A stretch of DNA of 64,000 nt, from positions 1 to 64,000 of the forward strand of contig NZ_BOOO01000020.1 of the NCBI RefSeq assembly GCF_016863275.1. Direction: 5' to 3'. Shown piece after piece: positions 232-21,950 of the stretch (the stretch's first letter is position 1; each line of letters begins with the position of its first letter). A model generated the notes under the pieces. The model had not been told where the DNA came from. It did no database searches and worked only from the letters and a program-made list of their open reading frames with translations. This stretch comes from Planotetraspora mira (GTDB taxonomy: Bacteria; Actinomycetota; Actinomycetes; Streptosporangiales; Streptosporangiaceae). Both the position numbers and the translations under genes were made by a program.

Positions 232-282
232 TGGCAGGTGCAAGGTTCGAACTTGCGGTCGGCTGAGCCGACGGTTTTACAG
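232..282 (-). repeat. attachment-site copy: 3' half of tRNA-Tyr (left end of island array)
   Basis: This 51-bp stretch, read on the minus strand, repeats the anticodon-loop-to-3'-end half of the tRNA-Tyr gene at 20415-20496. It matches except in the variable arm, where GTC replaces TA and adds one base. Upstream of the anticodon loop the similarity stops, so this is not a functional tRNA. It is best read as the tRNA-distal att site of the outermost integrated element. The altered variable arm suggests that the half-site came from another tRNA-Tyr allele carried in by an element. Confidence 0.85.
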
Positions 283-350
283 GTGACCGAGGTTGTCCGC
301 TGCTTGGTACCCACGAGCTGCGTATACGACTATGGAATGGGCCTCGACGG

Positions 351-377
351 GAAAGATCATCCCGCGCATATCCCGCG
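351..377 (+). repeat. element-A terminal repeat (possible integrase arm site)
   Basis: The motif GATCATCCCGCGCATATCCC lies about 70 bp inside the left att copy. A near copy (one inserted base and a few substitutions) sits at 14239-14264, just inside the next att copy, in the same orientation. A weaker third copy is at 10828-10855. Recombinase arm-type sites are commonly placed like this; that role is inferred. Confidence 0.5.
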
Positions 378-428
378 ACGACCCCTGCGGCGCCTTCTGT
401 TAGTAAGTGCACTGACGGCCAGTAGATC

Positions 429-995
429 TCACATGTCACTGTTCATGCGGACGTGTAGGTGCCCCTTGTGCGGGAAAGCCGGCGGTTGGGCAGGGAGCAC
501 GGAGCGAAGGACATATCGGCACTTCTCTGCCACACGGCACGAACCATGGTTATCGACAGCATGCAGCAGATCGAGGCGGGCCAGAGGCATTATGCGCTGC
601 GCGCCGAGCGCCCAACGCGATACAACCTCAAGGGCCCGGCTGGCGATGCCTTGCCCTCGGACTTCGGCCGATGTCCAGTAACCGACTGTTGCCGCAGCCT
701 CGTTCGGGTCGGTCGCCTTGACCACGATGTGCCCAACCGGACGACCAGGATCGCGCTCCTCGCCTCCGCACTCCAGGACGGCGAAGCTGAGCCGGACGCC
801 GGCGGCCCACCCTTCGCTCTGATCATCGATCCATCGACGCGCCTCTGTATCGCTGACAAGTGAGGTGGTCAGCCAGCGGCGCAGAAGCGGATCGCGGTGA
901 GCCGCCACAAGGGCTACCGCATCCTCTGCTCGCCAGGGACGCAGGCGCAACGCAGGTGCGGACGCAGTCGGCTCCACAGACAGGATTGCCGTCAT
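429..995 (-). CDS. GNAT-family N-acetyltransferase (RimJ/RimL-like)
   Basis: This 188-residue protein has the layout of RimJ/RimL-type acetyltransferases. An N-terminal LRLRPWRAEDA strand-helix is followed by a central ATVGYWTSAEVRGQGIASRA block (about residues 102-121), which holds the R/Q-x-x-G-x-G/A acetyl-CoA pyrophosphate loop. The family moves acetyl from acetyl-CoA to an amine, often a protein N-terminus or a small molecule; the substrate cannot be read here. The C-terminal part (ARLDLLHAVDNHGSCRVAEK) is family-like but lacks the usual A-x-x-Y, having CRVAEKCRY instead. The gene is alone just inside the left att site, with a 740-bp gene-poor stretch upstream of its start, so it is island cargo. 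Confidence 0.85.
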   Translation of the reverse strand: MTAILSVEPTASAPALRLRPWRAEDAVALVAAHRDPLLRRWLTTSLVSDTEARRWIDDQSEGWAAGVRLSFAVLECGGEERDPGRPVGHIVVKATDPNEAAATVGYWTSAEVRGQGIASRALEVVSRWALGAQRIMPLARLDLLHAVDNHGSCRVAEKCRYVLRSVLPAQPPAFPHKGHLHVRMNSDM

Positions 996-1677
996 AAACG
1001 CTCATTCTCCGACGCTTGGCCGGCCCTCGGAACTTTCCATGGCCCTCGCATCCTTGGGCAGGACGGGGTCGAACCCACGCTGTCAGCTAGGGAAGTGTAT
1101 GGATCACGCCTCGTAGCGCCGCTGAGCGGGCTTCGGTCAATTCAAGGCAACGGGCTTAACGGGCTCGCCGGGGTAGCCATGGAATCCTGCAAACGCAATC
1201 TTGGATTACTTTCGCTCGATCACAGTGGTCCCGATCGTAAATGGACTGCCGTTTGGAGAACACCCTAGGTCCACGACTCGCGTTGTCTAGTCCCACGAGA
1301 TGCTTGACGTTATCGATGCGACAAAATGGCTTCCGAAGAATTCGTCTGGCGGCCTCTCAAACTTGCGCCTCATCAGCATGCGGTGCAGGGCGCGCAACTC
1401 GTGGACAGAATCGATCTTGAACAGCGGTTCCTTATCCTTCACACGAACAGCATCCCAGCGGAGAGCGAGTCATCAGCTTGGGAAGTCTTTCATGATCTTG
1501 ACGCCGGAGCTGAGAAAAGGGTGGCCTCGAGGTATGCGGGTCGAGTGACCGTGAGTCCCTGTGGTTCACCGCTGGTCGCTGATCGAACGGGCACGCAACG
1601 GGCACGCGGCGTACGCCGTGACGGTGTCGGCGTGCGGCCCCGCTGAGGGCCGTTATTGATAGTGGGGACAACGGTTC
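996..1677. other. gene-poor stretch between the acetyltransferase and the MerR promoter
   Basis: About 680 bp separate the GNAT start from the MerR-type promoter. No full gene is convincing. The only coherent reading I see is a short minus-strand frame at 1287-1442, listed separately. Two short tandem ACGGGCACGC units occur near 1588-1606. The stretch is probably decayed island DNA. Confidence 0.5.
1287..1442 (-). pseudogene. possible C-terminal remnant of an unknown protein
   Basis: From a GTG on the minus strand this frame reads 51 residues with good amino-acid composition, including DSVHELRALHRMLMRRKFER and FFGSHFVASI, and ends in a stop. Stops just upstream in frame mean it cannot extend to a normal-sized protein. 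I do not recognise the family with certainty. It is either a small unknown protein or, more likely, the tail of a degraded gene. Confidence 0.25.
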
Positions 1678-1708
1678 TTGACCTTGACACTAATGTCAGG
1701 GTCTTAGC
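1678..1708 (+). promoter_or_regulatory. MerR-type promoter/operator with 19-bp spacer
   Basis: A -35-like TTGACC at 1678-1683 is followed by exactly 19 bp and then a weak -10-like CTTAGC. The 19-bp spacer is filled by the dyad ACCTTGACA-CTAA-TGTCAGGGT (1681-1702 including the overlap), which has only one mismatch between arms. MerR-family activators act on over-long 19-20-bp spacers containing such a dyad, so this should be the site of the regulator starting 36 bp downstream. That implies autoregulation and co-control of the F420-type oxidoreductase gene. Confidence 0.75.
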
Positions 1709-1737
1709 GTCGGCGCGTGCGAAGGAGAACCGTCGAG

Positions 1738-2118
1738 ATGCGCATCGGGGAGTTGTCCCGCAGGACCGGCGTCAGCGCGAGGTCGTTGCGGTACTACGAG
1801 CAGCAGGGTCTGATCCACGCCGGGCGTGGGGCCAACGGATACCGAGAATACGATGAGGCGGTCGCTGTCCGTGCGGCCAACATCCGGGATCTGCTGGATG
1901 CGGGCCTGACCGTGGAGGATATCCGCGACGCGTTGGACAAGGGGTGTCTGGAGCGGCCGCTCGGTACTCTGCCCCGGTGCGAGGGTGCGCTGCGGACGGC
2001 GACCGACCGTCTGGCAGTGCTGGACGGGCGGATAGCCACGCTGCTGGAAGTGCGCGAGCGGCTGGCTAAGCAGGTATTGCGGACGCGTGCCGCGCTCGGC
2101 CAGACCGTAGGGAGCTGA
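1738..2118 (+). CDS. MerR-family transcriptional regulator
   Basis: This 126-residue protein opens directly with the MerR winged helix, MRIGELSRRTGVSARSLRYY (residues 1-20), followed by the wing GYREYDEAV. A dimerisation coiled coil lies at about residues 77-115 (LRTATDRLAVLDGRIATLLE). The short C-terminus has one cysteine (TLPRCEGAL), so it lacks the multi-cysteine metal loop of MerR, CueR or ZntR; it looks like the small-molecule or redox-responsive class common next to oxidoreductases. The ATG at 1738 was chosen because AAGGAG lies 12 bp upstream and the HTH starts there. The next gene begins 4 bp after the stop, so the two are probably coupled. Confidence 0.9.
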   Translation: MRIGELSRRTGVSARSLRYYEQQGLIHAGRGANGYREYDEAVAVRAANIRDLLDAGLTVEDIRDALDKGCLERPLGTLPRCEGALRTATDRLAVLDGRIATLLEVRERLAKQVLRTRAALGQTVGS

Positions 2119-2122
2119 CGCC

Positions 2123-3004
2123 ATGCGGTTGGGAATCGCCCCGCATCGGCTCTGGCCTGACCGGGACGGTGATCTGGAAGGTGTCCTGGAGACCGCCCGC
2201 ACAGCCGAGCGGCTGGGCTTCGATCACGTCATCGCGGGCAGCCACGTGCTGCGCACCGGCTTGGGCGCGACCCTGGACCCCATCGTGCTCCTGTCGGCCG
2301 TCGCCGGAGCCACCTCGCGGATCCGCATCGCGACCAGCGTCCTCATCGCGCCGCTGTACCAGCCCGTCATCCTTGCCCATCAGACCGCCTCGCTGGATTT
2401 CCTGTCCGGTGGGCGGTTCGTGCTCGGGGTCGGAACCGGCTGGGATGCCGCTGAGTTCTCCGCAGTCGGGGTGCCGTTCGGACAGCGGGGGAGACGTACC
2501 GACGAGAACCTGGCCACGATGAAGGCGCTGTGGCAGGAGGAGTTCACCGAGGCCCGCATCGGCGTTTCACCGCTCACTCCCGGAGGGCCGCCGGTCTGGG
2601 TGGGCGGAGACAGCGATGCGGCACTTCGACGGGCGCTGTGCTTCGGTGATGCTTGGCATGGGTCGGGAAACCCTGCTGCCATGGCCGGAGTCCGCAGGCG
2701 CATAGCTGACCTGGCCGAGAGCATCGGCCGCGATCCGGCGACGCTGGCACTGACCTCGGTAGCTTTCCTGGTCCCGCCGGGAGTCCGCCAGATCGGGCGA
2801 GTGCCGGTCTCTCCGCTGGGTGGAACGCGACCCTCAGCCGGGAGCGTGGTGGAGGAACTCGGTCAACTAAAGGCGGCGGGCGTGACCACGTGCTCGCTGT
2901 GGCTGCCAGTGTCCGCAGCGGCGCTGCCCGACGCGCTGGCCTGGATCGCCGAACAGGTCATGCCAAGCCTCGACGCTGGAAGTTCCCGTCCCTCCCCTTT
3001 GTAG
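2123..3004 (+). CDS. LLM-class F420-dependent oxidoreductase (luciferase-like fold)
   Basis: This 293-residue protein has the bacterial-luciferase-like TIM-barrel signatures of the actinobacterial F420 group: an N-terminal AERLGFDHVIAGSH strand-helix, ATSVLIAPLYQPVILAHQTA near residues 72-91, and the hallmark GGRFVLGVGTGW (about 98-109) that contacts the phosphate of the deazaflavin. A C-terminal barrel helix (LKAAGVTTCSLWLP) is also present. Such enzymes use F420H2 or FMNH2 to reduce or hydroxylate small hydrophobic substrates. It is the only partner of the upstream MerR regulator, so its expression is probably inducer-dependent. The cofactor is inferred from family, not shown. Confidence 0.85.
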   Translation: MRLGIAPHRLWPDRDGDLEGVLETARTAERLGFDHVIAGSHVLRTGLGATLDPIVLLSAVAGATSRIRIATSVLIAPLYQPVILAHQTASLDFLSGGRFVLGVGTGWDAAEFSAVGVPFGQRGRRTDENLATMKALWQEEFTEARIGVSPLTPGGPPVWVGGDSDAALRRALCFGDAWHGSGNPAAMAGVRRRIADLAESIGRDPATLALTSVAFLVPPGVRQIGRVPVSPLGGTRPSAGSVVEELGQLKAAGVTTCSLWLPVSAAALPDALAWIAEQVMPSLDAGSSRPSPL

Positions 3005-3097
3005 TTTGCAACCCCGGCTCAACCAGGTCGCCCACATTCCGGTTCACTGATCCACGGGATGCATGCAAACGTTAGCTCCCCCGTTCCGTACGACACA

Positions 3098-3520
3098 TCA
3101 ATGATCAACCACGTGCCCCGATAAGCCAGGGTGAGGAACGAACCCTGGATCTTCGATCGCCCCCGACCACGACAGACCTCGGCCACCCCGTGGCGATCGT
3201 CGTGCTGCATGGGGCGGCGGCGCGACCAGAGGCCGGCCGATCGCGTGGGTACGGCGCGGCGGGCGGGCGGCGACGGCCCAGAGTCCTGCGCGCTGCCGGG
3301 GAGGCGTCTGAGCCTCTAGGGCGTCCAGCCTAGAACTCAGCGTGCGCATGTGCTGACGGATCTCTTTCAGCTGGTCAGAGATGACCCGGAACTCCTCGCT
3401 GTGACCGTCCGCCTGCGTCTGGCGCTCGATGTCACCGGCAGGCGAGGCGGTCACGAAGCTTCCCGACCCTTGGCGGGTCTCGATCAGGCCGTCATCGCGC
3501 AACACTGCCAACGCGTTCAC
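3098..3520 (-). pseudogene. GntR-family regulator fragment
   Basis: On the minus strand the frame from GTG at 3520 reads NALAVLRDDGLIETRQGSGSF, the recognition-helix end and wing of a GntR winged helix. A plausible linker and a heptad-like helix (ISDQLKEIRQHMRTLSSRLDALEAQ, residues 47-71) follow, and then low-quality Pro/Arg-rich sequence. The first two helices of the DNA-binding domain are missing, and the fragment is butted against the Ada-like gene 13 bp upstream. The downstream part from about 3307 to 3098 has no recognisable homology. I read it as a truncated, non-functional regulator. Confidence 0.65.
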
Positions 3521-3532
3521 GGCTGCGACCGG

Positions 3533-3826
3533 TTATCGAGATTCCTCTTCTGTCGGGCGTAGATCTGTTTCGCGTTTCCATGCCTGGTATCTGTCCGGGA
3601 GGCACCGTGCACAGGGCCGGTATCCGGCGGCCAAGGCAGTCTCCTCGTCGGCGAAGAACACCCGGTTGTTCACATAGCCGCCCCGGGCTATCGCGCGGAG
3701 AGCTGACCGGCAATCCAGCCGCCCGTAGATTCTTCTGGGCCTGTGGCCCCCGAGCGCACCAGGCACCGCACTTTCGTAGTGGTCGCGACCTGCGCCGAGA
3801 AGCCTGTAGATCTTTTCCTTCGGCAT
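3533..3826 (-). CDS. Ada-type zinc-binding domain protein (methylphosphotriester domain)
   Basis: This stand-alone small protein (97 residues; 105 if the ATG at 3850 is used) matches the N-terminal zinc domain of Ada: GGHRPRRIYGRLDC, SALRAIARGGYV, RVFFADEETALAAGYRPC and CARCLPDRY. Cys39, Cys72 and Cys75 are visible. The cysteine four residues after Cys39 that Ada would supply is absent (Leu43), so zinc ligation must differ. Full-length Ada moves methyl from DNA phosphotriesters onto a cysteine and then activates alkylation-repair genes. No AraC or methyltransferase domain follows. It sits downstream of an iron dioxygenase and an AlkA-like glycosylase on the same strand, which supports a repair role. 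Confidence 0.8.
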   Translation of the reverse strand: MPKEKIYRLLGAGRDHYESAVPGALGGHRPRRIYGRLDCRSALRAIARGGYVNNRVFFADEETALAAGYRPCARCLPDRYQAWKRETDLRPTEEESR

Positions 3827-3862
3827 TGCGCCGCCGCTTCCCTGGTCCATTGTGAATCCGGG

Positions 3863-4621
3863 TCAGGTGGCGTCGTGGAAGACCAGGCCGAGGGTATGCC
3901 TCCGGCCTGTTCGGACGGTGGACACACCATGGCGTACGGGTGCCGCCGACCAGCCACGTGCAGACGGCACAGGTCTGTCACGGGTGGTGAAGATCAGACC
4001 GTGGCCTTGAGGAATGAGGACCGCCGTTCCGCGAGACTGCGCCCGAGGGCGTTGTTCGACCAGCAAGAACTCACCTCCGGTGTGCTCTTCGTTGGGGGTG
4101 TTCAAATTGATGACGACCTGGAGCGGGAAGACTTTCTCGCCGAAGATGTCTCGGTGGAGCGCGTTCCAGCCGCCCGCCTCGTAGCGCAGGAGGATCGGAG
4201 AGGGTTTGCCCTGGCCGGCGCTGTGGCAGATCTCCAGCCATTCAGCCAGGGTGTCGGGCCATTCCGCGTCGCGGCCGAGCTTGCCGTACCAGTCGCGGGC
4301 GATGGGCAGCAGCCGCGGATACAGTTCTTCGCGCAGCCGCTGCACGGCCTCGGGGAAGGGATGGTCGAAGTAGCGGTACTCCCCCTCGCCGAACCGGTGC
4401 CGTCGCATGTTGACAGTGGAGCGGAACAGTTCCGGCTGGTCGTACAGTCCGGCCAGGTCGGAGCATTCGGCGGGCGTGAGCAGTTGCGGCAGCAGCGCGC
4501 ATCCGTATTCGTCGACCTCGCCGGTGACCGAGTCCCAGTCCGCGGCGGCGACCCGCTGGGCGAACGGGTTCCCAACGGCGGTGTTCCGTCCCGCGCGCGA
4601 CGTGGCGGTGATGGCGTTCAT
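3863..4621 (-). CDS. 2-oxoglutarate-Fe(II) dioxygenase, alkylation-repair neighbourhood
   Basis: This 252-residue double-stranded beta-helix protein has the iron triad His156-x-Asp158 (LHRDIFGEK) and His231 (VRHGVST), plus Arg240/241 for 2-oxoglutarate before TLGLVFHDA. The SRGTAVLIPQGHGLIFTTRD stretch matches a group of uncharacterised bacterial 2OG oxygenases (COG3826-like, from memory) rather than classical AlkB. The ATG at 4621 was chosen for a GGAGG 5-6 bp upstream; the frame is open 129 bp further with no family sequence. It is 12 bp from the Ada-domain gene and co-directional with the glycosylase, so oxidative dealkylation of DNA or a related repair step is likely but inferred. Confidence 0.85.
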   Translation of the reverse strand: MNAITATSRAGRNTAVGNPFAQRVAAADWDSVTGEVDEYGCALLPQLLTPAECSDLAGLYDQPELFRSTVNMRRHRFGEGEYRYFDHPFPEAVQRLREELYPRLLPIARDWYGKLGRDAEWPDTLAEWLEICHSAGQGKPSPILLRYEAGGWNALHRDIFGEKVFPLQVVINLNTPNEEHTGGEFLLVEQRPRAQSRGTAVLIPQGHGLIFTTRDRPVPSARGWSAAPVRHGVSTVRTGRRHTLGLVFHDAT

Positions 4622-4826
4622 GTCGCCTCCAACGTAAGAAGGGCGGCCATGCCTTTTGTCCTTCCACGGCGTGGGCCGCTGGTGCGGTCTTCCACGCGTG
4701 TAGACGCTCGGTGGCCGCGAAACGTGAGAACGCATCACCCGAAGTCGCATGAGCGACGTGGGCTACCCAGACGACTCCCTACGCCCGCGTTTTCGCCCAG
4801 ACCGCCTGCACCGAAGGCCTCCATGC

Positions 4827-5573
4827 TTAAGTTACGAACCGATCGGCCTGGCCGGAATCATGCAGGTCCACGTTCCTTACGTGCCTGTTTCGCGACTCGA
4901 TAGCGGCTTCCCGGCTCAAGGCGCGGGCCTTGGGGTCGGACAACTCGTCTGCGGGTCGCAGGGATCTCCATAGCAGCGTGGCCGCATACGTCCGGTGGGG
5001 CGCCCATGCGGTCGCCATCTTCTGCACGGCCTCCACAGTAGGCAGATCCTCGCGTTGCCACGCCTTGCGGATGGCGCGGCGGATGCCGACGTCGCCGGCG
5101 GGCAGGATGTCGCTGCGATGGAGTTGGTGGATCAGGAACGTCTGTGCCGACCACAGCCCGATACCTTTCACCGCGGTCAGCGCGGCTATCGCCGCGCTGT
5201 CGTCCAGGTCGGCCATGTCCTCAATATCGATGAGGCCACTCACCTGCCTGCGTGCAAGGTCGAGGACGTAAGCCGCCTTCGCTCGGGACAGCCCGCACTC
5301 GCGCAATCGTTCGGCACCCAACGCGATGACGCCGTCGGGCGTGGGGATACCGCCGACGGTGGCCGCGATCCGATCGAAGACGATGAACGCCACGACGGCG
5401 GAGATCTGCTGTCCGACGATATGCAGCGTCATCGCCGCGAAATTGCTCGATCCGGTACGGCCGCCGTCGTGCCACTCGAAAGGGTCCGGATGACCGTACG
5501 CCTCTACCAGGCGTGCGAGGACTGGATCACGATCGGCGAGAAACCGGTACTGGCGCTCATGATCGCTGTTCAT
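4827..5573 (-). CDS. AlkA-like DNA-3-methyladenine glycosylase II (HhH-GPD)
   Basis: This 248-residue protein is an HhH-GPD base-excision glycosylase. It has NFAAMTLHIVGQQISAVVA (residues 44-62), the helix-hairpin-helix AVKGIGLWSAQTFLI (134-148), and the catalytic aspartate Asp161 in ILPAGDVGIRRAI. It would remove alkylated purines such as 3-methyladenine from DNA, leaving abasic sites. AlkA family members also carry an N-terminal domain, which is missing here, as in many short actinobacterial versions. A 205-bp gap separates it from the dioxygenase gene on the same strand. Confidence 0.9.
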   Translation of the reverse strand: MNSDHERQYRFLADRDPVLARLVEAYGHPDPFEWHDGGRTGSSNFAAMTLHIVGQQISAVVAFIVFDRIAATVGGIPTPDGVIALGAERLRECGLSRAKAAYVLDLARRQVSGLIDIEDMADLDDSAAIAALTAVKGIGLWSAQTFLIHQLHRSDILPAGDVGIRRAIRKAWQREDLPTVEAVQKMATAWAPHRTYAATLLWRSLRPADELSDPKARALSREAAIESRNRHVRNVDLHDSGQADRFVT

Positions 5574-5648
5574 GATGGTTTCCCTTCCAGGCGGCCGGCC
5601 TCTGATCCGTCTGACCCGACAGGCGCGGGCCGCGGCCTGCGGAAGAGG

Positions 5649-6044
5649 TCACACGGCTGCGACGCAGTCGATTTCGATGTCGAAGGGGCCGGGCCATGCG
5701 GGAACGCACACGAAGATCCGCGCGGGTGGATCGCTGGGGAAGTACCGGCTGTATACGGCGTTGACCGCGGCGAACTTGTCGACGGATGTGCAGTACACGT
5801 TGCATTTGAGGACGTTCTCCAGGGTCGAGCCCGCCGTCTCCAGACAGAGTTTCATCTGCTCCAGGACGAGCTCGGTCTGACGCTCGATCGAGGCGCCCTC
5901 CAGGACGTCACCGGTGTCAGGGTCGAAGGGCGGGAATCCCGAGACATAGATGGTGTCACCGCTTCGGGTGACGGCCGAGGTCGGCGCTTTCCACCGCTCC
6001 AGGTAGGTCGACAACGGCTCGACGCGGATGATCTGTCTGTTCAT
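5649..6044 (-). CDS. RidA/YjgF-family enamine/imine deaminase
   Basis: This 131-residue protein has the RidA fold markers: DTIYVSGFPPFDPDTG (30-45), an ASIERQTELVLEQMK helix, Arg109 in PPARIFVCV (binds the substrate carboxylate) and Glu124 in FDIEIDCVAAV. RidA enzymes hydrolyse reactive 2-aminoacrylate-type intermediates; paralogues act on other enamines. A GGGAG lies 7 bp before the ATG. It follows the decayed ABM monooxygenase and precedes the glycosylase on the same strand, 75 bp upstream of it. RidA-like proteins are often paired with degradative oxidoreductases. Confidence 0.9.
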   Translation of the reverse strand: MNRQIIRVEPLSTYLERWKAPTSAVTRSGDTIYVSGFPPFDPDTGDVLEGASIERQTELVLEQMKLCLETAGSTLENVLKCNVYCTSVDKFAAVNAVYSRYFPSDPPARIFVCVPAWPGPFDIEIDCVAAV

Positions 6045-6056
6045 CGTCGACTCCCG

Positions 6057-6381
6057 TTAGTGAGTATGCGCGGGTCTATTTAGACCGGCGAGTCCTGCTC
6101 TCGCCGGTTTCGGCTTCCCGCAACTCCCGGCGTCGCGCCAGTCGTCTACGTCGTAGGTCTCGAGGGTGCGCTCGTCCAGCAGCGGAATGATCTGGCCGAT
6201 GACGATGTCCTTGAAGTGCGGCGTCCTGCTGATGGGCTGCGAACGCGCGCTGCGATACAGAACGCTCCAGGACGATGACCTCGAGGTCGCCTTCGAGCTG
6301 CTGATAAGGAATGAAACAGATGTTGCCCGGCTCTGTGCGGGTCGCCTCGGTGATTTTCGAGAGCAGGGTGCGCACCCCCCT
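6057..6381 (-). pseudogene. antibiotic-biosynthesis-monooxygenase (ABM) family pseudogene
   Basis: The minus strand reads VRTLLSKITEATRTEPGNIC, FIPYQQLEGDLEVIVLER and AFAAHQQ. One extra G near 6228 (CAGCAGGACGCCGCAC) shifts the frame, and the protein resumes as TPHFKDIVIGQIIPLLDERT and LETYDVDDWRDAGS. Together these give the small dimeric ABM/quinol-monooxygenase fold of about 95 residues. The first strand and start codon are also missing. The gene therefore appears to be inactivated by an N-terminal truncation and a frameshift. Confidence 0.8.
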
Positions 6382-6461
6382 ATGCCAGGTCGCTGACGGG
6401 TCGCCTCGCATGTGCCCGTCTCCGGCGGCGGGTGCGTGATCCCGGCGGCTCCGTGCGTGGC

Positions 6462-7199
6462 CTACGAGCGCCATCGCTGGATGAGCTGGTCGGCCAGGCC
6501 GGGCAGGTCCGGTGCGACGATGTTGGGCTGAGGCAGCGAGGTGACGGGCAGAGGCGCGTTGCCCGGCCGGGTGATCAGCCCAGCTGTGTAGCCGGCGCTT
6601 TGGGCGCCCACGGTGTCCCAGACATGGCAGGCGACCATGAAGCATGTGGACGGCGGCACCGCCAACCCCTGGGCGACCAGGTGGTAGACGTGTGTGTCGG
6701 GCTTGTAGGCGCGGACGGTCTCGACGGTGAACTGCCGCTCGAAGAACGGCGCGAGGCCGGCGTGCTCCAGCGGGCTCTGCCCGCCGGGGTTGGCCGGCGA
6801 GTTGGTCAGCGTGACCAGGCGGAAGCCCGCGTCTCTGAGCTTGGTCAGACCCGGCTCGACGTCGGGATGGGCGGGCATGGTCAGCATGGCCTGCCCGATC
6901 TCCTCCACGTCGTCGTCGGTGACCTGGACGCCGTGGACGTCGCCGACCATCTTCAGCAACCCCTGGCCCAGAGCGAAGTAGCCCTCCCAGAGGCCGGACA
7001 GAGTGATCGTCATCGAGTACATGATCAGCTGGCTGAGCCACTCGCGCATGACCCGAGCGTCGCCGAAGATCTTCTCGAAGAGCGGGTCCATCGACTCGAA
7101 GTCAATCAGCGTCTCGTTCACGTCGAAGACGAGAACGTGGGGCTCGCCACCGATCCACTCGCCGTCGGCGCCGGCGGGCGTGGCCAGGTTGTGGTTCAT
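6462..7199 (-). CDS. haloacid dehalogenase type II (HAD superfamily)
   Basis: This 245-residue protein has the HAD nucleophile motif VLVFDVNETLID (Asp26), a four-helix cap-like segment (about 40-120), motif II LVTLTNSPA, motif III lysine in RAYKPDTHVYHLVAQ, and the acidic motif FMVACHVWDTVGAQSAGY. This is the type II layout in which Asp attacks C2 of a 2-haloacid and releases halide. Many homologues act on phosphoesters or fluoro/chloroacetate, so the substrate is open. The ATG at 7199 has GGGGGAT about 8 bp upstream; an in-frame ATG 9 bp earlier is the alternative. The protoglobin gene lies 53 bp upstream on the same strand. Confidence 0.85.
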   Translation of the reverse strand: MNHNLATPAGADGEWIGGEPHVLVFDVNETLIDFESMDPLFEKIFGDARVMREWLSQLIMYSMTITLSGLWEGYFALGQGLLKMVGDVHGVQVTDDDVEEIGQAMLTMPAHPDVEPGLTKLRDAGFRLVTLTNSPANPGGQSPLEHAGLAPFFERQFTVETVRAYKPDTHVYHLVAQGLAVPPSTCFMVACHVWDTVGAQSAGYTAGLITRPGNAPLPVTSLPQPNIVAPDLPGLADQLIQRWRS

Positions 7200-13569: not shown

Positions 13570-13646
13570 CGTGCGAAGCCTTAGGACAGGGTCCCGGAAG
13601 CCCTCCGGGGCTCTGCCGCGTTCCTACGTCCTGATCTGCGAAACAA

Positions 13647-14238: not shown

Positions 14239-14264
14239 AAGATCCATCCCGCGTATATCCCGTG
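14239..14264 (+). repeat. element-A terminal repeat (right end)
   Basis: AGATCCATCCCGCGTATATC followed by CCGTG repeats the 351-377 motif with one inserted C and two substitutions. It lies about 95 bp inside the internal att copy. A related pair of CATCCCG words (14197-14213) precedes it. Together with the left copy it gives the 14-kb element matching ends. Confidence 0.5.
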
Positions 14265-14321
14265 AGCACCTACAAACGGCCGCTCAGGGCGGCACATGGC
14301 TGCATGGCCCTGGAAAGCAAA

Positions 14322-14341
14322 AGAGGCCCCGGAGGGCCTCT
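14322..14341. terminator. hairpin between small island gene and att site
   Basis: AGAGGCCC-CGGA-GGGCCTCT forms an eight-pair perfect stem with a four-base loop, preceded by AAAA on the plus strand, which would be U-rich after the stem for minus-strand transcription. A similar GAGGCCCG hairpin sits in the corresponding place of the other element (20364-20406). Confidence 0.6.
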
Positions 14342-14357
14342 GAGCTGGGAAAATCCC

Positions 14358-14410
14358 GTGTGGCAGGTGCAAGGTTCGAACTTGCGTAGGCTGAGCCGAC
14401 GGTTTTACAG
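14358..14410 (-). repeat. internal attachment site: 3' half of tRNA-Tyr
   Basis: These 53 bp are identical to 20412-20464, the 3' half of the tRNA-Tyr gene plus three flanking bases, in the same orientation. Similarity fades beyond the anticodon stem (AGCGCTGCC against ACCGCTCCC). It separates the 14-kb and 6-kb elements and is where one integrated next to, or was accreted onto, the other. Confidence 0.9.
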
Positions 14411-15073
14411 AGCGCTGCCAGCCGGAGTATCACCTACCACCTGACGTGCTAAAACACCGTGGAAACGATTAAGCGAGCCCAAGCAGCGACGCGCATACGA
14501 CGCGAGCGTTCGGTCTACAGCGGTGTGCATGTAAAAGTGCCCCGCCTCAGCCGCCAAGGTTCTAGCGTCAGACTATGACGACGAGCATCAAGCAGATCCT
14601 CGATCCTCAGCCACCCAGTTGGTACAAGAAGCAAGATCGAACGGCTGCGCGAGGTGGCTGCAGCGCTCATGGCACACCACCCTGCCATGAGCCCATCGTT
14701 CATAGTCTCGTGCTAGCGGATGACGGCAGCGATGACATCCAGTGGGCTGTCTGCCAGCGAGGGTTTGACGAGCTTCTCAGGCGGGTTCGCGGCGGCGGTC
14801 CAGCGACTAGCCCCGCACCCTGAGCCGCCTGACACTCCCTCGCCTAGACCCCTTCGATGCGAACTATTGGCAAGTCCCCGGTGTCTGGCCTTATCCCGCG
14901 CTGAGGTGTGTGATCGTGTTCGGCCTTCGGCGGTGTCGTGCGCCCCCGTTGCTGTACCTCACTGCTGTACACAGCTGGACTCCGCCGGCCGCGTGGTGGG
15001 CCTGTGGCGTGGGACCTGCCGATGCGGCTATGGTCGACGTACTTCGTCGAACATGAGCATTCTGGAAGTCCAC
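14411..15073. other. left end of the 6-kb element, no clear gene
   Basis: This 660-bp stretch follows the internal att site. It contains the left element-B repeat (14487-14507). An 82-codon frame at 14575-14823 begins MTTSIKQILDPQPPSWYKKQ but has no ribosome-binding site and no recognisable fold. Other frames are short or compositionally odd. I see no gene that can be supported before 15074. Confidence 0.45.
14487..14507 (+). repeat. element-B terminal repeat (left end)
   Basis: The 21-bp word CGACGCGCATACGACGCGAG plus C is repeated with one mismatch at 20298-20318, just inside the tRNA-proximal end of the same 6-kb element. Both copies have the same orientation. It parallels the different terminal repeat of the 14-kb element and may be an integrase arm site. 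Confidence 0.55.
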
Positions 15074-15484
15074 ATGCCTCGCCGATCATCGGGCGAGATC
15101 AGGTCCCGTCTTCCACACAGGAAAACCAGGGCCGACAAGCGAACCGTGATCCGAGGTCTCTCCGCCTCGGCAAATCGTCAAATAGCACAGTTCGAGCGTG
15201 ACCGCGGACTATACAGAGGAGACATCGCCCTAGCGTTCCGGCGATGGGCGTTACGCGCCGGACGTCCCCGCAATGCTGAGGAATGGCTCCACGGGTACTC
15301 CGACGTACCGACCGGCCACATCCGCACTCTGCTCGAAGTTACCCTTTGGAACCTGCGACCCCGCGCACAACGCGAACTGAGGGCCGCCATCGCCCCCATC
15401 GACGCACGGATCCTCAAGCGAACGGTCAACGACCCCTTTGCTCCGCAGTCCCTTCCATGGTGGCAACGACGCATCGAGATCTAG
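15074..15484 (+). CDS. small basic island protein, family member 2 (unknown function)
   Basis: This 136-residue protein is a paralogue of the one at 13647-14069: MPRRSSGEIRSRLPHRK aligns with MPRKPPGTLRSRWKRSP, TVIRGLSASANRQIAQFERD with HIRGLSAKAHRAVQRLEDQR, and the ends SLPWWQRRIEI and AAWWRQRLTSR match. It lacks the CPCC patch. The start at 15074 was set by that alignment; an ATG 21 bp upstream is also possible. It lies near the tRNA-distal end of its element, whereas its relative lies at the tRNA-proximal end, so the pair straddles the internal att site. The function is unknown. Confidence 0.7.
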   Translation: MPRRSSGEIRSRLPHRKTRADKRTVIRGLSASANRQIAQFERDRGLYRGDIALAFRRWALRAGRPRNAEEWLHGYSDVPTGHIRTLLEVTLWNLRPRAQRELRAAIAPIDARILKRTVNDPFAPQSLPWWQRRIEI

Positions 15485-15703
15485 CCCTGCTGCTGCCGCC
15501 AGGGGGTGCAAAGCGGACCCACTCACACGCGGTCTCGCTCGACCCCTTCTATGCGAAGCCAACGCGCGGGTACCACGACGTGTGCTGTTGCCGCGGTTGA
15601 CCTGCTCAAACGGACCATTACTGCTCGCTGAGGTTCGCGGATGTTCGCGACGGTTGTCACTCAGTTCGTCACGCACGAGGGAACAGTCAGTAATCTTTTT
15701 AAG

Positions 15704-16264
15704 ATGGACTGGATACCATTACTAAGCACGGTACTTGGCGCCGTGATTGGCGTCGGCGCAACGCTTGTTGCTGACTGGACACGGGCAAGTCGCAGCGAAC
15801 GAGAAGGCGACCGTGCTATCAAACGTCAGGTATATGGGGACTACCTCGCAGCACTGTCTCTGACGCGGCATAACCTTCGAGTCGCCGCTCGGCTTTCGGT
15901 GGCATCCGTTGACGACAGGGCTCGCCTGGCCTTTGATGCCTTCAAGGATGCCAGAGCATATGAGATGCGGTACCAAGTTGCACTGGTCGCACCAGACCAG
16001 GTGATCGAGGCATCCACCTCTGCATTCAATGCTCTGAGAAGCCTGCGCGATCTTGTGGAAGGCGGAGGAGGGACACACGATGACCCGGCCTACCGTGCCG
16101 CTCAGGATCAGTGGGCGAACCGATTTGCCGAGTTGCGCCATTGCATGCGGGGCGACCTAGATCGCAACAAACGTCGGGGGACAGTGATCATCCGTCAGCA
16201 CCCAGCAAATAGCCAAGCCGTAGGAGGCGCCCATCACGACGCCGAGGGGTTGGGTCGTCGATAG
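15704..16264 (+). CDS. small membrane-anchored protein of unknown function
   Basis: This 186-residue protein starts with a single N-terminal membrane helix (WIPLLSTVLGAVIGVGATLV, residues 3-22). A mostly helical cytoplasmic or external part follows, with DYLAALSLTRHNLRVAARLS and ARAYEMRYQVALVAPDQVIE. The helix-rich pattern after a TM resembles unnamed actinobacterial proteins next to mobile DNA. The last 30 residues (RQHPANSQAVGGAHHDAEGL) look atypical and may lie beyond a small frameshift. The ATG at 15704 was preferred over one 63 bp upstream because the hydrophobic helix follows directly; no strong ribosome-binding site is visible. Confidence 0.6.
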   Translation: MDWIPLLSTVLGAVIGVGATLVADWTRASRSEREGDRAIKRQVYGDYLAALSLTRHNLRVAARLSVASVDDRARLAFDAFKDARAYEMRYQVALVAPDQVIEASTSAFNALRSLRDLVEGGGGTHDDPAYRAAQDQWANRFAELRHCMRGDLDRNKRRGTVIIRQHPANSQAVGGAHHDAEGLGRR

Positions 16265-16540
16265 CCGTGTCAACAGGGCGTGGCTGTAGACCTGCGCGAG
16301 TCGGCCTGTAGGCCGGGTTCTGATTCCGCATTCTCTCTACCTGCACGGATTCGCACTGAACCGCAGGCGACCAGGGAAAACGCTTCCGTTCGTTGTCATC
16401 GCTTGCCAGTGCTTTCCGGAGCCGTGTGCCCCCAAAGTGCCCCCGGCCCGGCATGCCTTCGTGAACAACCTGACCCGAGTGCTTCTTAGGTACCTGCCAT
16501 CGAGGCATATCTCGTCGTTTCATCCCGATAGGGTCGGCCG
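16265..16540. other. 276-bp gap with no supported gene
   Basis: No reading frame, RNA gene or clear repeat was found here. Two GTGCCCCC-type words near 16428-16442 are the only local repetition. Confidence 0.4.
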
Positions 16541-16827
16541 GTGATCAATATGCAGGTGCGATCTGAGAACGGCGATGTCGTCGCCACGGCGGGTTGTGGC
16601 TTGCCGTGGTTCGAGACTGTGGGCGGCCTGGACCAGGCGGAGTTTCCGACGCTGGGCGGCCTCGACCCGTATGGCGACGCGATCTTCAATCAGCGCCAAG
16701 TCCCGGTCCTGCTGAAGGAGTTGGAGCGACTGCCAACCGAGAGTCACAGTGGGTCGACGAAGTCCGTGCCCTCGGCCGGACCGTGCTCAAGGCCCCGCAC
16801 CGCTATCTGTGGTTTATCGGCGATTGA
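16541..16827 (+). pseudogene. frameshifted gene of unknown function
   Basis: Two parts of one small protein are in different frames. The first reads MQVRSENGDVVATAGCGLPW, FETVGGLDQAEFPTLGGLDP and YGDAIFNQRQVPVLLKELER. After a one-base shift near 16735-16755 the second reads QWVDEVRALGRTVLKAPHRY and ends LWFIGD-stop. The join makes sense as a single protein of about 93 residues. Similar small unnamed proteins are common in actinomycetes, but I cannot name a function. It appears inactivated. Confidence 0.65.
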
Positions 16828-16980
16828 CCGTCGTCGACTTCTTCCTTATCAGGGAAGCGGAACTGGCTTTCGAACTGCCCGAACACGGTTCTTCACCTGT
16901 AGGGATCGTCCGCAGCCGTACGCCAGTGTCCAAGGTTGTACGTCGGCGTTGTCACGCAGTTGAACACGCAGGGCGGCGCC

Positions 16981-17487
16981 TCAGCCGTCGAGTCCAACAA
17001 GCAGTCCAGCGACGCTAAGCCCTGTCGTCAGGTAGTCAACGAACAAGTGATTGTTCAGCGCCCACTTCGAACGCCGGTAACGGACAAGGAATATCGCGTC
17101 ATCCACTGAGTATCCGAGGGTCAGGAGCGCCTGGACGATGACGAGGCCCGACCGGTTGTAGCCGGCGTGGCAACGAACCAGGACTTTGCGCTCAGCCTCC
17201 ACGGCTGCCGCAGCAAACTCCCCGAGTTCTAAGACCTCAGCGAGTTGTTGAGATGTGAGCGGTCCGTCCGGCATCTCACAGCAGCGGTGGATGACTGCTT
17301 CAGCTGGGCCATGCCCGTCACGACGGTAGAGGCTGATGACAACATCGAACTCGTCGCGAACGACTACCGGAAGAAGTTCACCGGACGATTCGCGGTAGTG
17401 ATGACCGCCCATGAACAGACCAGGAACAATCTCGCTCCAAGGCGAGTCGGCGTAGGGTGCGCCCCGGCCCTCGATGCGCATCTGCAC
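16981..17487 (-). CDS. dual-specificity/tyrosine phosphatase-like protein
   Basis: This 168-residue protein contains the Cys-based phosphatase loop VLVRCHAGYNRSGLV with Cys106 and Arg112 (C-x5-R), and upstream segments typical of dual-specificity phosphatases: SEIVPGLFMGGHHYR (18-32), DEFDVVISLYRRDG (45-58) and, after the loop, VIVQALLTLGYSVDDAIFLV. The general-acid aspartate is probably in EMPDGPLT (Asp74). Such enzymes dephosphorylate Ser/Thr/Tyr or small phosphorylated ligands; the target is unknown. It stands alone inside the 6-kb element, facing away from the neighbouring frameshifted gene, with no obvious kinase partner. Confidence 0.8.
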   Translation of the reverse strand: MQMRIEGRGAPYADSPWSEIVPGLFMGGHHYRESSGELLPVVVRDEFDVVISLYRRDGHGPAEAVIHRCCEMPDGPLTSQQLAEVLELGEFAAAAVEAERKVLVRCHAGYNRSGLVIVQALLTLGYSVDDAIFLVRYRRSKWALNNHLFVDYLTTGLSVAGLLVGLDG

Positions 17488-17696
17488 CTCTCCATCACAC
17501 GACCCGGCCGTGTATGGACGGGCGAATCAGCAAGTCACGAGATTCACCCTACATTCGAAGCCAGACCAACATCATTTGATCGATGCTCGGCAGGGCGATT
17601 TCGGGCAGTGCTGGGCGCAATCCCACCCCCGCCAGCAGGGCGTAGCGCGCAGGCATGAGAGGTGCCGCCAGTATCCGCCGCCGGTCCTGATCTCTC

Positions 17697-17905
17697 GTCT
17701 GCTGTCGACCCATCCGAAGGACAGCGGGCCGGCGACGGAGGGGCAGGCCCGGCGTCGCGTGTTCCATGTTCCCGGTGACCTTCCACGCGCACTGGTTGCC
17801 CTGCCTGCACGGCCGGGTTTGACCTGGAGGAGTCGGTCTGCTGGGCTCTGCCTGGGTCGATGGCAGGCGAGCGATCAGGACTTCCACCTCAACCAGCTAC
17901 GGCCC
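17697..17905 (+). repeat. diverged 210-bp module shared by both tandem elements (copy 2)
   Basis: This copy aligns along its length with 10906-11115. The best-preserved blocks are GTCGACCCATC, GACAGCGGGCCGGC, GGTCTGCTGGGCTCTGCCTG and CAGCTACGGCCCG. Weak similarity may continue for another 40 bp. Frame-disrupting length differences argue against a protein. Confidence 0.6.
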
Positions 17906-18681
17906 GCCATGGTGCGGGCATCCTTCTCTCGGAGCTGGAGCGCCCCGGGGTTCGGGGCGGAGCCTCGAGGTCATCCCCGGCATTCCTCCGCCTCTCACTC
18001 CCACTTTCTCTTTCTCTCGCACAGCGTCGCCTCTGGTCTCCGGTCATGTTCGGCTGCTCTGCCTGCCCCGTGCTTATGACCGTTCACCCATTGGGGAGAG
18101 ACCTTCATTGGCACAAGCCGCTATGCCGTCGATCCGATGGTCACCGCCGCTTGTCGGCGGTGGTGCGCGCCGCCGCCGGCGGGACCGGCCGAAGAGCCGC
18201 AGCCCGCCGGTGGGCGGGCGCGCGGCCAACCGGTAGACCATTGAGTCCGTGCACCTTGCGAGAGTGCGGGGCCATGATGACGACCTGGGCAGCGCTGTGC
18301 ATCCCCCTCGATCGACCCCCTGCAGTGTCCCGGAAGCAGCTTCGGAAACGTCTCCTCCGCCGACCCAACTTCCCCAGCGTGCCCATCCCCGCGGGCCGCC
18401 TTCCTCCTTGGATCGTCGAGGTGCCTACCCGGCTTCCCTTCACCTCTCCCCGGCAACCGGCTGTCCGCCGAAGGCGGCTTGACCACGGGAGGAAATCTGT
18501 AACAGCTCAGCTGATCGGGATCTTGTCCTGCCCCAGAGACTTGCTTGACGCGACCGCCGCTTCGGCGGCACGTTCTGAAACGAGGAGCTGGTCCAGTTCG
18601 ACAAGGCGTAGCCGGTCCCCGAGCTGTTGGTGGGTCCCGGTACGATCACGGCTCGGCAGCGCGACAACCCTGGGAGTGGCC
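17906..18681. other. gene-poor segment upstream of the YcxB-like gene
   Basis: About 775 bp contain no supported gene. A long open plus-strand frame running through it from 17860 has low-complexity Arg/Pro/Ser composition and joins the real gene only near its end, so it is a high-GC artefact. A pyrimidine-rich tract lies at 17995-18022. Confidence 0.5.
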
Positions 18682-19194
18682 GTGCAGGAACCGAGCTCAG
18701 TGGAGTTGGCTTACCTGCCAACGACCGCGGACGCGGTGGGGGCGATCCGCGCGCGGAGGCGAACCAGCCGCCTGTGGAACGGGGTGCTCCTGGCCAGCGC
18801 GATCGTTGTGCTGAGCGTTCTTATCCTGAACTTCATGGGTCCGAGGAAACCCGGCTCGACGGTGCTCTGCCTCGCGGCGTTGGCCCTGTTCATCGGTATG
18901 CATGTACTGGTTCCTACGCTCAAGGGGCGGCAGATACACAAGATGGTCGCCCCGCAAGGGGAATTCCAGGCCATCGTGGACGACAGCGGGGTGCGGGTGA
19001 CCTCGCGGGATAGCGAGATGACGTTCCGGTGGCCGATGCTCACCCGGTACGCAGAGACGGATGAGCTGTTCGTCCTGATGACGCCCGACAAGTATCGCGT
19101 CGCATTCGTCGTCCTCCCCAAGCGCGGTGTCGCGGAACCGGCGGACGTCGACCGATTGCACGCCGTCCTCAACCGGAACGCCACCCGAGTCTGA
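18682..19194 (+). CDS. YcxB-like two-helix membrane protein
   Basis: This 170-residue protein has two adjacent membrane helices (WNGVLLASAIVVLSVLILNF, about 32-52, and TVLCLAALALFIGMHVLVPT, about 60-80). A C-terminal beta-rich domain follows: GEFQAIVDDSGVRVTS, MTFRWPMLTRYAETDELFVL, and DKYRVAFVVLPKRG. This is the layout of YcxB-family proteins, whose biochemical role is not established. The GTG at 18682 was chosen because GGGAG lies just upstream and the frame before it is compositionally unlike protein. It is an isolated cargo gene in the 6-kb element. Confidence 0.75.
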   Translation: MQEPSSVELAYLPTTADAVGAIRARRRTSRLWNGVLLASAIVVLSVLILNFMGPRKPGSTVLCLAALALFIGMHVLVPTLKGRQIHKMVAPQGEFQAIVDDSGVRVTSRDSEMTFRWPMLTRYAETDELFVLMTPDKYRVAFVVLPKRGVAEPADVDRLHAVLNRNATRV

Positions 19195-19248
19195 CCCCGG
19201 GGAACCCGGCAACACACTCCAGCAGACAGGCGAACAGGCAGGATGGTC

Positions 19249-19677
19249 TCAGTGCGCCCACCCGTCGTTTCCGGGTGGGAACTCTCCGCGGAGCAGGCTG
19301 ATGAAGGCACGACCGCATGCCAGCAGTGGGCCGGTGGGCAGGTCCGCGTTGAATGACTCCTGCTCGCCGCCCGTGCCGAAGGAGTTCACGAGATCCTTCG
19401 GGATGGCCGGAGACCACGTGAGCAGTCGCCGCTGGACCCGCTCCGACAGGTCAAGGGCAAGCGCAACGCGATCTGGTTCCGTTCCGAGATGGTCGTCCAT
19501 GTAGGACGACACGCATCCCATGAAGCCGGCCGTGGCCTGTGTCAGCCAGTCATCCCGGGCACCAGCGAGCCATGCGGGAGCCTCGGGGATCGTGTCGGCC
19601 CCCTCCTGCGCCAGGAGGTACAGCCACACTTCTGCCTGGTAGTCGCGGACCCAGAAACCAGATCCGCGGTAGTCCAT
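19249..19677 (-). CDS. conserved protein of unknown function
   Basis: This protein of 142 residues (147 if an upstream GTG is used) begins MDYRGSGFWVRDYQAEVWLY, followed by LAGARDDWLTQATAGFMGCV and DRVALALDLSERVQRRLLTW. It is soluble, acidic and helical, with aromatic clusters. Comparable unnamed proteins occur in many actinomycetes, often near mobile or regulatory genes. No catalytic motif is visible. It is convergent with the YcxB-like gene and separated by 54 bp. Confidence 0.6.
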   Translation of the reverse strand: MDYRGSGFWVRDYQAEVWLYLLAQEGADTIPEAPAWLAGARDDWLTQATAGFMGCVSSYMDDHLGTEPDRVALALDLSERVQRRLLTWSPAIPKDLVNSFGTGGEQESFNADLPTGPLLACGRAFISLLRGEFPPGNDGWAH

Positions 19678-19878
19678 GTACGAGCTGCCCACACGGGCAG
19701 TAGATCACGTAGCCGCGGAGAGGCTCCACGGGATTCAGGCCGTAGCCAGCATCCCTCTTGTCCGCTGGCAACAGGCTGGCGTCACAGGACGGTGATCTGC
19801 TGAGCAGATCGCATGACGAGGCGACCATGGACGGGTCCCGGCCCTTCGGAAGGGGCGGGCCCGGACACTCAGAGCAGG

Positions 19879-20107
19879 TTAGACAAGATGCACGCCGTCG
19901 TGCTGCCTGATGGCTGGTGCACCTTCGTGCAAGGCGTCGAGCACGCGGACCGCAAATGCCTCGGTAACCATCTGGGACACCTCGGTCGGCGTAGCCCAGT
20001 GGAAGCTCTGGACCTCCTTATTGAGGGAGAGGCTTCCTCTGGTGGCCTCGCAGCGAAAAACCAGGGCGACGATTCCCCGCGACATGTTCTTGTAGACGCC
20101 GGTTTAC
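19879..20107 (-). pseudogene. Nudix hydrolase C-terminal fragment
   Basis: On the minus strand the frame reads TGVYKNMSRGIVALVFRCEA, then LNKEVQSFHWATPTEVSQMV and a helical end. This is the part of a Nudix hydrolase after its catalytic box; the GX5EX7REUXEEXGU helix itself is missing. A stop and foreign sequence begin exactly at 20102-20104, where an integrase remnant starts on the other strand. The gene was cut at that junction and cannot be active. Confidence 0.75.
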
Positions 20108-20293
20108 GATCTGCGGCACGCGTGTGTCTCGACATGGCTCAATGCCGGGGTTCCGGCTCCGCAGGTTGCCGAGTGGGCGGGGCATAGCGTCAACGTGCTG
20201 CTGCGGGTCTATGCCAAGTGCATCGTCGGCCAAGATGACCTTGCCCGGAAGCTGATCGCCGACGCTCTGAAACCATCCCAAGACACCGACTGA
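20102..20293 (+). pseudogene. tyrosine integrase C-terminal remnant next to tRNA-Tyr
   Basis: These 63 codons read VYDLRHACVSTWLNAGVPAP, QVAEWAGHSVNVLLRVYAKC, then a short basic tail and a stop. They match the end of the integrase at 12607-13569 almost residue for residue, including Arg-His, the AGH histidine and the catalytic Tyr. Everything upstream is replaced by a reversed Nudix fragment. It sits 120 bp from the tRNA gene, where an element's integrase normally lies, and shows that the 6-kb element has lost mobility. Confidence 0.85.
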
Positions 20294-20297
20294 TCGC

Positions 20298-20318
20298 CGA
20301 CGCGTATACGACGCGAGC
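20298..20318 (+). repeat. element-B terminal repeat (right end)
   Basis: CGACGCGTATACGACGCGAG plus C matches 14487-14507 at 20 of 21 positions in the same orientation, so the 6-kb element has direct repeats just inside both ends. It starts 5 bp after the stop of the integrase remnant. Confidence 0.55.
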
Positions 20319-20363
20319 ATCCGTAGATCGCCGTTGACGACCATGAACAGCCGGACACACAGC

Positions 20364-20406
20364 AAGAGGCCCGCCGCCGCGTTTCCGCTGGTGACGGGCC
20401 TCTTTT
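20364..20406. terminator. hairpin downstream of tRNA-Tyr and the integrase remnant
   Basis: AAGAGGCCCG and CGGGCCTCTT form a ten-pair perfect stem around a 21-base loop. The plus strand continues TTTT-like (TCTTTTGG), giving a factor-independent terminator for the integrase direction. It is also correctly placed, 8 bp past the tRNA 3' end, to stop minus-strand tRNA transcription. Confidence 0.7.
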
Positions 20407-20414
20407 GGCTGGTG

Positions 20415-20496
20415 TGGCAGGTGCAAGGTTCGAACTTGCGTAGGCTGAGCCGACGGTTTTACAGACCGCTCCCTTTGGCCACTCGGGCAACCTGCC
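20415..20496 (-). tRNA. tRNA-Tyr (anticodon GUA), integration target
   Basis: The minus strand folds as a complete type II tRNA: acceptor GGCAGGT/ACCTGCC, D-arm GCCCGAGTGGCCAAAGGGAGC, anticodon stem GCGGT/ACCGT around loop CTGTAAA (anticodon GTA), long variable arm, T-arm GCAAG-TTCGAAC-CTTGC and discriminator A. CCA is not encoded. The downstream 3' half is repeated twice more in the window as att sites. A functional tRNA-Tyr gene is the known target of the Streptomyces element SLP1, so this locus is a natural hotspot. Confidence 0.95.
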
Positions 20497-21945: not shown

Positions 21946-21950
21946 CGGGC

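Follow-up and report, generated by a model that had tools for sequence, protein, structure and literature searches.

When several mobile elements are stacked at one tRNA gene around a shared core sequence, the question arises of how an integrase cuts out its own element and leaves the rest of the stack in place. Such a stack was analyzed at the tRNA-Tyr gene of Planotetraspora mira, in a stretch of 64,000 nucleotides (the window) comprising positions 1-64000 of contig C20 (NZ_BOOO01000020.1), at the left end of this contig, in a genome (G000) of 9.03 Mb and 100 contigs. Four sister Planotetraspora genomes (G001-G004, making five for the genus with G000) were used for comparison, together with a set of tRNA-Tyr loci (L numbers) of which 80 were fetched and 75 kept as named loci, the other five having no tRNA match over 75 bp; at most 10 kb of flank was considered per named locus. 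The region is very probably the part nearest the tRNA of an accretion array made up of decayed elements of the actinomycete integrative and conjugative element (AICE) type, with a shared core, private arms and a composite first segment. The accretion of AICEs is already known; interest lies in the private-arm pattern and in the exchange between arrays at tRNA-Tyr and at tRNA-Gly.

Only one tRNA gene was detected in the window by ARAGORN, and a search of the whole genome returned this same gene as the single full-length tRNA-Tyr match. The gene and the attachment (att) cores that delimit segment 1 (283-14357) and segment 2 (14411-20411) were the following:

231-282: att core bounding segment 1 on the left; its variable-arm part has one inserted base and one substitution
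14358-14410: att core that separates the two segments, identical to 20412-20464 over 53 bp
20412-20464: att core at the tRNA and right end of segment 2, a tRNA 3′ half of 51-53 bp
20414-20496, minus strand: intact tRNA-Tyr (gta), the integration site

The original prediction had placed the 3′ half of tRNA-Tyr at three positions in one orientation, with the copies at 14358 and 20412 identical over 53 bp and the leftmost one differing in the variable arm. ARAGORN and the half-site scans agreed with this on every point, the leftmost core matching at 26/26 positions in its left half and 24/25 in its right half. No match was obtained with the same thresholds on one strand of 20 shuffles of a 93-kb contig. 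Direct copies of the tRNA 3′ half thus mark off at least two segments, and the intact tRNA stands at one end; this is the layout of an accretion array, and the anatomy is directly visible in the sequence. On other contigs, half-sites were found at C49:23948-24008 and C37:55350-55398, as well as shorter pieces of 22 bp at C62:3106-3127 and C34:147065-147086 and a right-half piece at C67:3544. In a different phylum, ICESt1-type tandem accretion is said to place att-flanked segments side by side at one site. SLP1 integrates at the tRNA-Tyr of Streptomyces coelicolor, the same tRNA isotype as that of the window array; none of the 11 matching plasmid records was named SLP1, and a literature search on AICE integrases and SLP1 at tRNA-Tyr found no paper.

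Comparison with relatives located the break in synteny at the tRNA. The right-hand similarity ended at its outer edge, at 20413 for G002 (89% nucleotide identity) and at 20414 for G003 (93%), and extended 50 bp more, to 20364, for G001 and G004, because both have the same type of flank on the integrase (int) side. The nearest relatives among the named matches were Planotetraspora phitsanulokensis, P. kaengkrachanensis and P. thailandica, in which the DUF520 protein adjoining the tRNA was 90-95% identical. At the Planomonospora loci L120 and L123, a tRNA-Thr was located only 1.4 and 3.2 kb from tRNA-Tyr, and neither an integrase homologue nor a second half-site was found in the flanks examined. 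In G000, the tRNA-Met and tRNA-Thr were present on contig C59, of which 13.7 kb was collinear with the left flank of G002 (90%); if C59 is the left flank, tRNA-Thr and tRNA-Tyr are about 31 kb or more apart.

Furthermore, an integrase homologue (fragments included) was present no more than 1.5 kb from the 3′ end of the tRNA at 26 of the 75 loci, and an extra half-site was found in the flank at 13 of the 75, three of these 13 having two. The element at L101 (Nonomuraea) carried RepSA, FtsK/SpoIIIE, GntR and HTH_17 proteins beside its integrase, so the family at the tRNA-Tyr site includes AICEs. Tandem integration at the 3′ end of tRNA-Tyr was thus borne out by the synteny break, by the integrases beside the tRNA in relatives and by the segment ends paired through arm repeats that are described below.

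Both segments retained remnants of tyrosine integrases, and the features at their integrase ends were:

12607-13569, plus strand: family-B tyrosine integrase of segment 1 (PF00589, 1.7e-6), without about 140-150 N-terminal residues
13650-14069, minus strand: 140-aa ORF between int and att in segment 1, with no PHROG, NCBIfam or PADLOC match
20105-20293, plus strand: C-terminal relic of a family-A tyrosine integrase in segment 2, 71% identical over 55 aa to the L101 integrase

The remnants ended about 790 bp (segment 1) and about 120 bp (segment 2) short of the cores. The product of 12607-13569 showed 75% amino acid identity to residues 152-482 of the L101 Nonomuraea AICE integrase and 77% to residues 137-459 of the trimmed query. 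The relic of segment 2 was closest to L108, beside the tRNA-Tyr of that locus (84% over 98 codons), and the match continued beyond the stop codon. Family-A integrases were 41-47% identical to the family-B integrase of L105; the int-side flank of the core at 14358 resembled those of family-B loci, and that of the core at 20412 resembled those of family-A loci. Judged from these sequences, segment 1 appears to have used a family-B integrase and segment 2 a family-A one. A phage origin of the integrases was discarded, the identity to phage records being at most 28% (best ten of 39). A frame similar to the 140-aa ORF was present in Microtetraspora fusca (L080), with 78% nucleotide identity over 13706-14163, and tblastx of segment 2 gave mainly short uninformative matches, the integrase end excepted.

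The segments can be regarded as AICE remnants, their integrases being homologous to that of an AICE at the same site (L101), and neither of them has the intact integrase gene beside att that a functional AICE would have. No replication initiator (RepSA, RepAM, Prim-Pol) was found in the 30 ORFs scanned for families, which were part of the ORFs of the segments, nor by tblastn with a related RepSA; likewise, no FtsK/TraB-type transfer protein was found in these 30 ORFs nor by tblastn with a related FtsK-type protein. With broken integrases, and with no genes for replication or transfer found, the segments would behave as helper-dependent remnants.

Stacks of comparable anatomy have been described. 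At a tRNA-Arg in a Streptomyces population, AICEs of different families with integrases 39-88% identical are stacked together with a traB-less remnant, according to an excerpt of the report (PMC9513070). As described there, that array also has several elements between direct repeats at one tRNA, remnants included; unlike it, the array in the window is at tRNA-Tyr, belongs to Planotetraspora, consists of two segments that are both remnants, runs off the contig end, has arm repeats that pair its ends and contains a tRNA-Gly half-site in segment 1. Tandem AICEs and integrase subfamilies, with an SLP1 subfamily named, are in print (PMC3218068, in excerpt). The window shares with those AICEs a tyrosine integrase beside att at a tRNA 3′ end and has a relative (L101) with RepSA and FtsK/SpoIIIE; it differs from them in that neither of its segments yielded a rep or tra homologue. 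In the PAISt island, internal and flanking att copies also divide the island into modules, but its site is bacA, the repeat is an 8-bp palindrome and one integrase (intSt) was tested, as far as the excerpt of PMC4057263 describes.

The two segments were distinguished by short repeats located beside the shared core:

359-375 and 14246-14262: ATCCCGCGNATATCCCG, ATCCCG type, at both ends of segment 1
14190-14208: second ATCCCG-type arm repeat at the right end of segment 1, 151 bp from the core
14488-14507 and 20299-20318: GACGCGNATACGACGCGAGC, CGACGCG type, at both ends of segment 2

These arm repeats, delimited at 359-377 and 14246-14262 for segment 1 and at 14487-14504 and 20298-20315 for segment 2, were direct repeats with a period of 11 bp, placed 76 bp to the right of a core and 97 bp (segment 1) or 98 bp (segment 2) to the left. 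The expected number of matches in the window was 0.08 for ATCCCGCGNATATCCCG (up to two mismatches) and 0.05 for GACGCGNATACGACGCGAGC (up to three mismatches), and one further two-mismatch match to the segment 1 arm repeat was found at 10837. Like repeats were thus present at both ends in both window segments, as expected of the two ends of one element. Because the ends are of the ATCCCG type in one and of the CGACGCG type in the other, they belong to two different elements with a common core and private arms.

The same layout was observed beyond the window. When the named loci were scanned for a 7-mer repeated with period 11 (at most one mismatch) and ending 88-107 bp from the core, the repeat was found at 47 of the 75, against 0-5 loci for periods 7-10 and 12-16 and a mean of 1.6 (maximum 9) in 100 shuffles. 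The position and the period were constant and the letters varied, with 28 distinct 11-bp words among the 47 loci. Two intact Nonomuraea integrases go with types like those of the window, that of L105 with ATCCCG and that of L108 with CGACGC. When 60 more integrase loci were examined, a tRNA-Tyr core was found at 18, and the repeat was present in 16 of these versus 5% of random windows; as six of the 18 were already among the 75, it was carried by 10 of 12 truly additional loci. A second arm site near 150 bp was rejected as a general feature, being found at 10/47 loci (at most one mismatch) versus 4.2 expected from other loci, mostly of TCCCG types.

End pairing was evaluated by a fixed rule on all 18 tRNA-Tyr segments, 16 in the named loci and two in the window. 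With at most one mismatch, eight of the 18 were readable at both ends and scored 65 against a shuffled mean of 53.7 (sd 3.2), a value reached by 24/20000 permutations; when the two window segments were left out, six segments remained and 503/20000 permutations scored as high. With at most two mismatches, 14 segments were readable (12/20000), and 12 without those of the window (221/20000).

These repeats also bear on how the segments were formed. The half-site copies far from the tRNA, on C49 and C37, would fit a duplication of tRNA fragments by ordinary recombination. Such an origin is nonetheless highly improbable, given that integrase remnants are found about 120 and 790 bp from the cores, that the similarity to two sisters ends at the core and that the paired arm repeats keep constant distances from it; even the off-site copy on C37 has two arm-repeat types, one per side, and that on C49 has one, on the left. 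It is also unlikely that segments 1 and 2 came jointly, as a composite with an internal att, instead of by two integrations. The identity of the cores at 14358 and 20412 agrees with joint arrival, and excerpts of two reports discuss composite mobilisation across tandem att sites for AICE/DAICE pairs (PMC9513070) and modular excision for PAISt (PMC4057263); on the other hand, the arm repeats and the integrase families differ between the segments, and the tRNA-Tyr stretches examined in the four sister genomes contained neither segment.

The arm repeats are predicted to be, most likely, arm-type binding sites of Int. A structural model of the L105 integrase (mean predicted local distance difference test score, pLDDT, 79.6) contained strands and a helix at residues 4-53, which precede the helical and catalytic parts, in a layout which we take to be that of arm-binding domains; a fold search with the whole model returned Xer, Cre and Tn1549 integrases first. 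For three of these integrases, no arm-binding domain was named by Pfam, which would suit repeats bound by another protein (Xis, a repressor or a replication factor) and not by Int. We consider such a binder rather improbable, since the same letters flank the core on either side, as Int arm sites would, and the modeled N-terminal strands and helix point the same way. Private arm repeats in arrays of this kind were not described in any paper found by a limited literature search.

To relate the repeats to the proteins, 26 integrases with a readable N-domain were compared. Motif similarity followed the N-domain given the catalytic part (partial correlation, p 0.014 for family B and 0.0005 for family A), and it followed the catalytic part given the N-domain (p 0.0005 for B and 0.15 for A). 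Since the motif follows both parts, the repeats belong to integrase lineages, and the N-domain would be the part that reads them. The proposal that the arm letters are due to the N-domain alone was discarded, as these partial correlations do not separate it from lineage. There is almost an even chance that the differences in letters are neutral drift between integrase lineages with no role in separating stacked elements, as the correlation with the catalytic part in family B would indicate. Against drift stand the 28 words in 47 loci at a fixed position and period, so that both halves of the repeat change together, and the correlation of the N-domain with the motif at given catalytic identity in both families.

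A correction to the two-element reading concerns segment 1, inside which sequence of the tRNA-Gly(CCC) type was found:

1062-1095, minus strand: tRNA-Gly(CCC) half-site, nt 30-64 (E 5e-6)
1473-1610, plus strand: flank, on the anticodon side, of a second tRNA-Gly-type junction, with the 11-bp-period repeat GGGCACGC at its end

The half-site matched at 28/35 ungapped positions, against at most 22 in six shuffles (one strand), and the 77 bp around it were 87% identical to a tRNA-Gly junction of G002. The flank at 1486-1610 was about 80% identical to copies adjoining tRNA-Gly half-sites. Because a tRNA-Gly(CCC) half-site sequence lies inside it, segment 1 is composite. In G002, the intact tRNA-Gly(CCC) (C21:171180-171253) had seven half-sites in the adjoining 18.3 kb, and this array held a tRNA-Tyr core (50/51) at 162739. 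The tRNA-Gly junctions also had 11-bp-period repeats of varied letters; in L146 (G002:C21:152001-172000), each of the seven half-sites had such a repeat on at least one side.

Across the five genomes, 11 tRNA-Tyr half-sites with a length of 49 bp or more were located outside tRNA genes, and six of them had a tRNA-Gly half-site within 2 kb, the tRNA-Gly match in G004 being of 23 nt. Two sequences of G004, 59359-60709 and the flank 61908-62158, are near opposite ends of a segment bounded by tRNA-Tyr, with a tRNA-Gly site inside; in G002, and similarly in G003, the same two sequences (94-95% identical) flank one tRNA-Tyr core between tRNA-Gly sites. This circular permutation is what a single circle with two att sites would leave on integrating through either of them. 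As the remainder of the G004 and G002 segments has no match, recombination between arrays is possible as well. Additionally, G000:C49:67166-69283 and G002:C19:207885-210000 were 99.7% identical over 2.1 kb, the tRNA-Tyr flank of the same two species being about 89-90% identical; this near-identity probably reflects a recent transfer.

The window starts at a contig edge, and the array is therefore cut off on its left, where one more feature was recognized:

1-230: right-hand end of an additional element that lies to the left; positions 186-230 resemble the int-side flanks of other tRNA-Tyr junctions

Positions C20:3-187 were 94.1% identical to C67:4423-4607. On the minus strand of C62, positions 172-268 formed a type-A int-side flank with a damaged core, whose far flank was 94.7% identical to C67:3579-3747; from these shared C67 matches, C62 in this orientation would precede C20, the two being separated by about 0.7 kb. 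In the tRNA-Tyr islands of G003 and G004, counterparts of five C62 blocks were present at 91-96% identity. At its right end, C59 had a type-A flank without a core followed by a fragment (86%), and the same fragment is found in G004 about 1.3 kb ahead of sequence matching the start of reversed C62. The order C59, C62 (minus strand) and C20, with a total of about 49 kb from the point where the shared left flank stops (C59:23723) to tRNA-Tyr, may be deduced from these matches. Of the two tandem elements originally proposed, the tandem integration stood and the total of two did not, as the array continues beyond the contig edge.

The remaining genes of the segments were:

432-995, minus strand: GNAT acetyltransferase, segment 1
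1717-2118, plus strand: MerR regulator, segment 1
2123-3004, plus strand: luciferase-like monooxygenase (LLM), segment 1
3863-4750, minus strand: Oxygenase-NA (2-oxoglutarate, 2OG, oxygenase), segment 1
4827-5573, minus strand: HhH-GPD glycosylase, segment 1
5649-6044, minus strand: L-PSP, segment 1
6462-7256, minus strand: HAD hydrolase, segment 1
7253-7882, minus strand: protoglobin, segment 1
8884-9714, minus strand: SDR, segment 1
9846-10487, plus strand: TetR, segment 1
11250-12206, minus strand: myo-inositol-1-phosphate synthase (PF01658, 1.1e-17), segment 1
16981-17487, minus strand: dual-specificity phosphatase-like protein, segment 2
17860-19194, plus strand: YcxB-domain protein, segment 2

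Segment 1 was thus rich in cargo, and most of segment 2 had no assignment. ORFs supported by Pfam covered 62% of segment 1 versus 31% of segment 2; decay, which had been predicted along with unrelated cargo, was present but uneven. Defence cargo was discarded, PADLOC on ten ORFs having returned one weak 2OG match only. The block 3801-8159, from Oxygenase-NA to protoglobin, was also found in G003:C50 (89-93%) and partly in G004:C100 and G001:C49, and no tRNA-Tyr half-site was detected near it in 20 kb of G003:C50 nor in the G004 and G001 stretches examined. Since this cargo is present in G003:C50 without a half-site, it also moves without this att. The original prediction had named cargo in sister genomes without half-sites as evidence against it, and G003:C50 provides this for part of the cargo, while the junctions in the window stand.

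A repeat of about 300 bp was present at 10870-11175 in segment 1, with a second copy at 17687-17907 in segment 2; many further copies were distributed across all five Planotetraspora genomes searched, often in arrays of the tRNA-Gly type. On the other side of the tRNA, about 1.3 kb (21779-23195) had no counterpart in G003, where the flanking blocks stand 113 bp apart. In this stretch, an MmyB-type regulator (21951-22814, minus strand) adjoins a C-terminal integrase fragment (21779-21919, minus strand), and it is possibly a further insertion.

Several observations weigh against an accretion array with private arms. There was no sign of present-day excision, and no fully empty site was found among the four sister genomes of the genus. 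One of the eight readable segments, L113:8398-8995, was clearly unpaired, and several others match in part. In the tRNA-Gly arrays, 11 of 19 neighbouring pairs were readable and five of these 11 matched, with 2499/20000 permutations as good, so no pairing signal was obtained there. Finally, the arm repeat tracks the catalytic part besides the N-domain, and lineage and direct recognition are not separated by this.

With these points considered, the accretion array described at the outset would have been built by successive integrations, which we infer from the anatomy. Each element would have recombined its own tRNA half of 51-53 bp with the tRNA 3′ end by means of Int, and each integration would have rebuilt the tRNA, displaced the older elements leftward and left a half-site at the junction. 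The arm repeats would act as Int sites, and private arms would let an integrase pick its own ends in the stack; the present segments would move only with a helper. We propose tentatively, at somewhat less than an even chance, that competing elements diversify their arm sites and keep the core constant, that the arm repeat is a private address for each integrase and that composites of tRNA-Tyr and tRNA-Gly type move between arrays.

The paired arm repeats are a testable candidate answer to the question of how an integrase excises its own element. They may also help to tell which ends belong to which decayed element of an array, and the tRNA-Tyr/tRNA-Gly composites could explain tRNA half-sites at distant loci, together with the cargo brought along.

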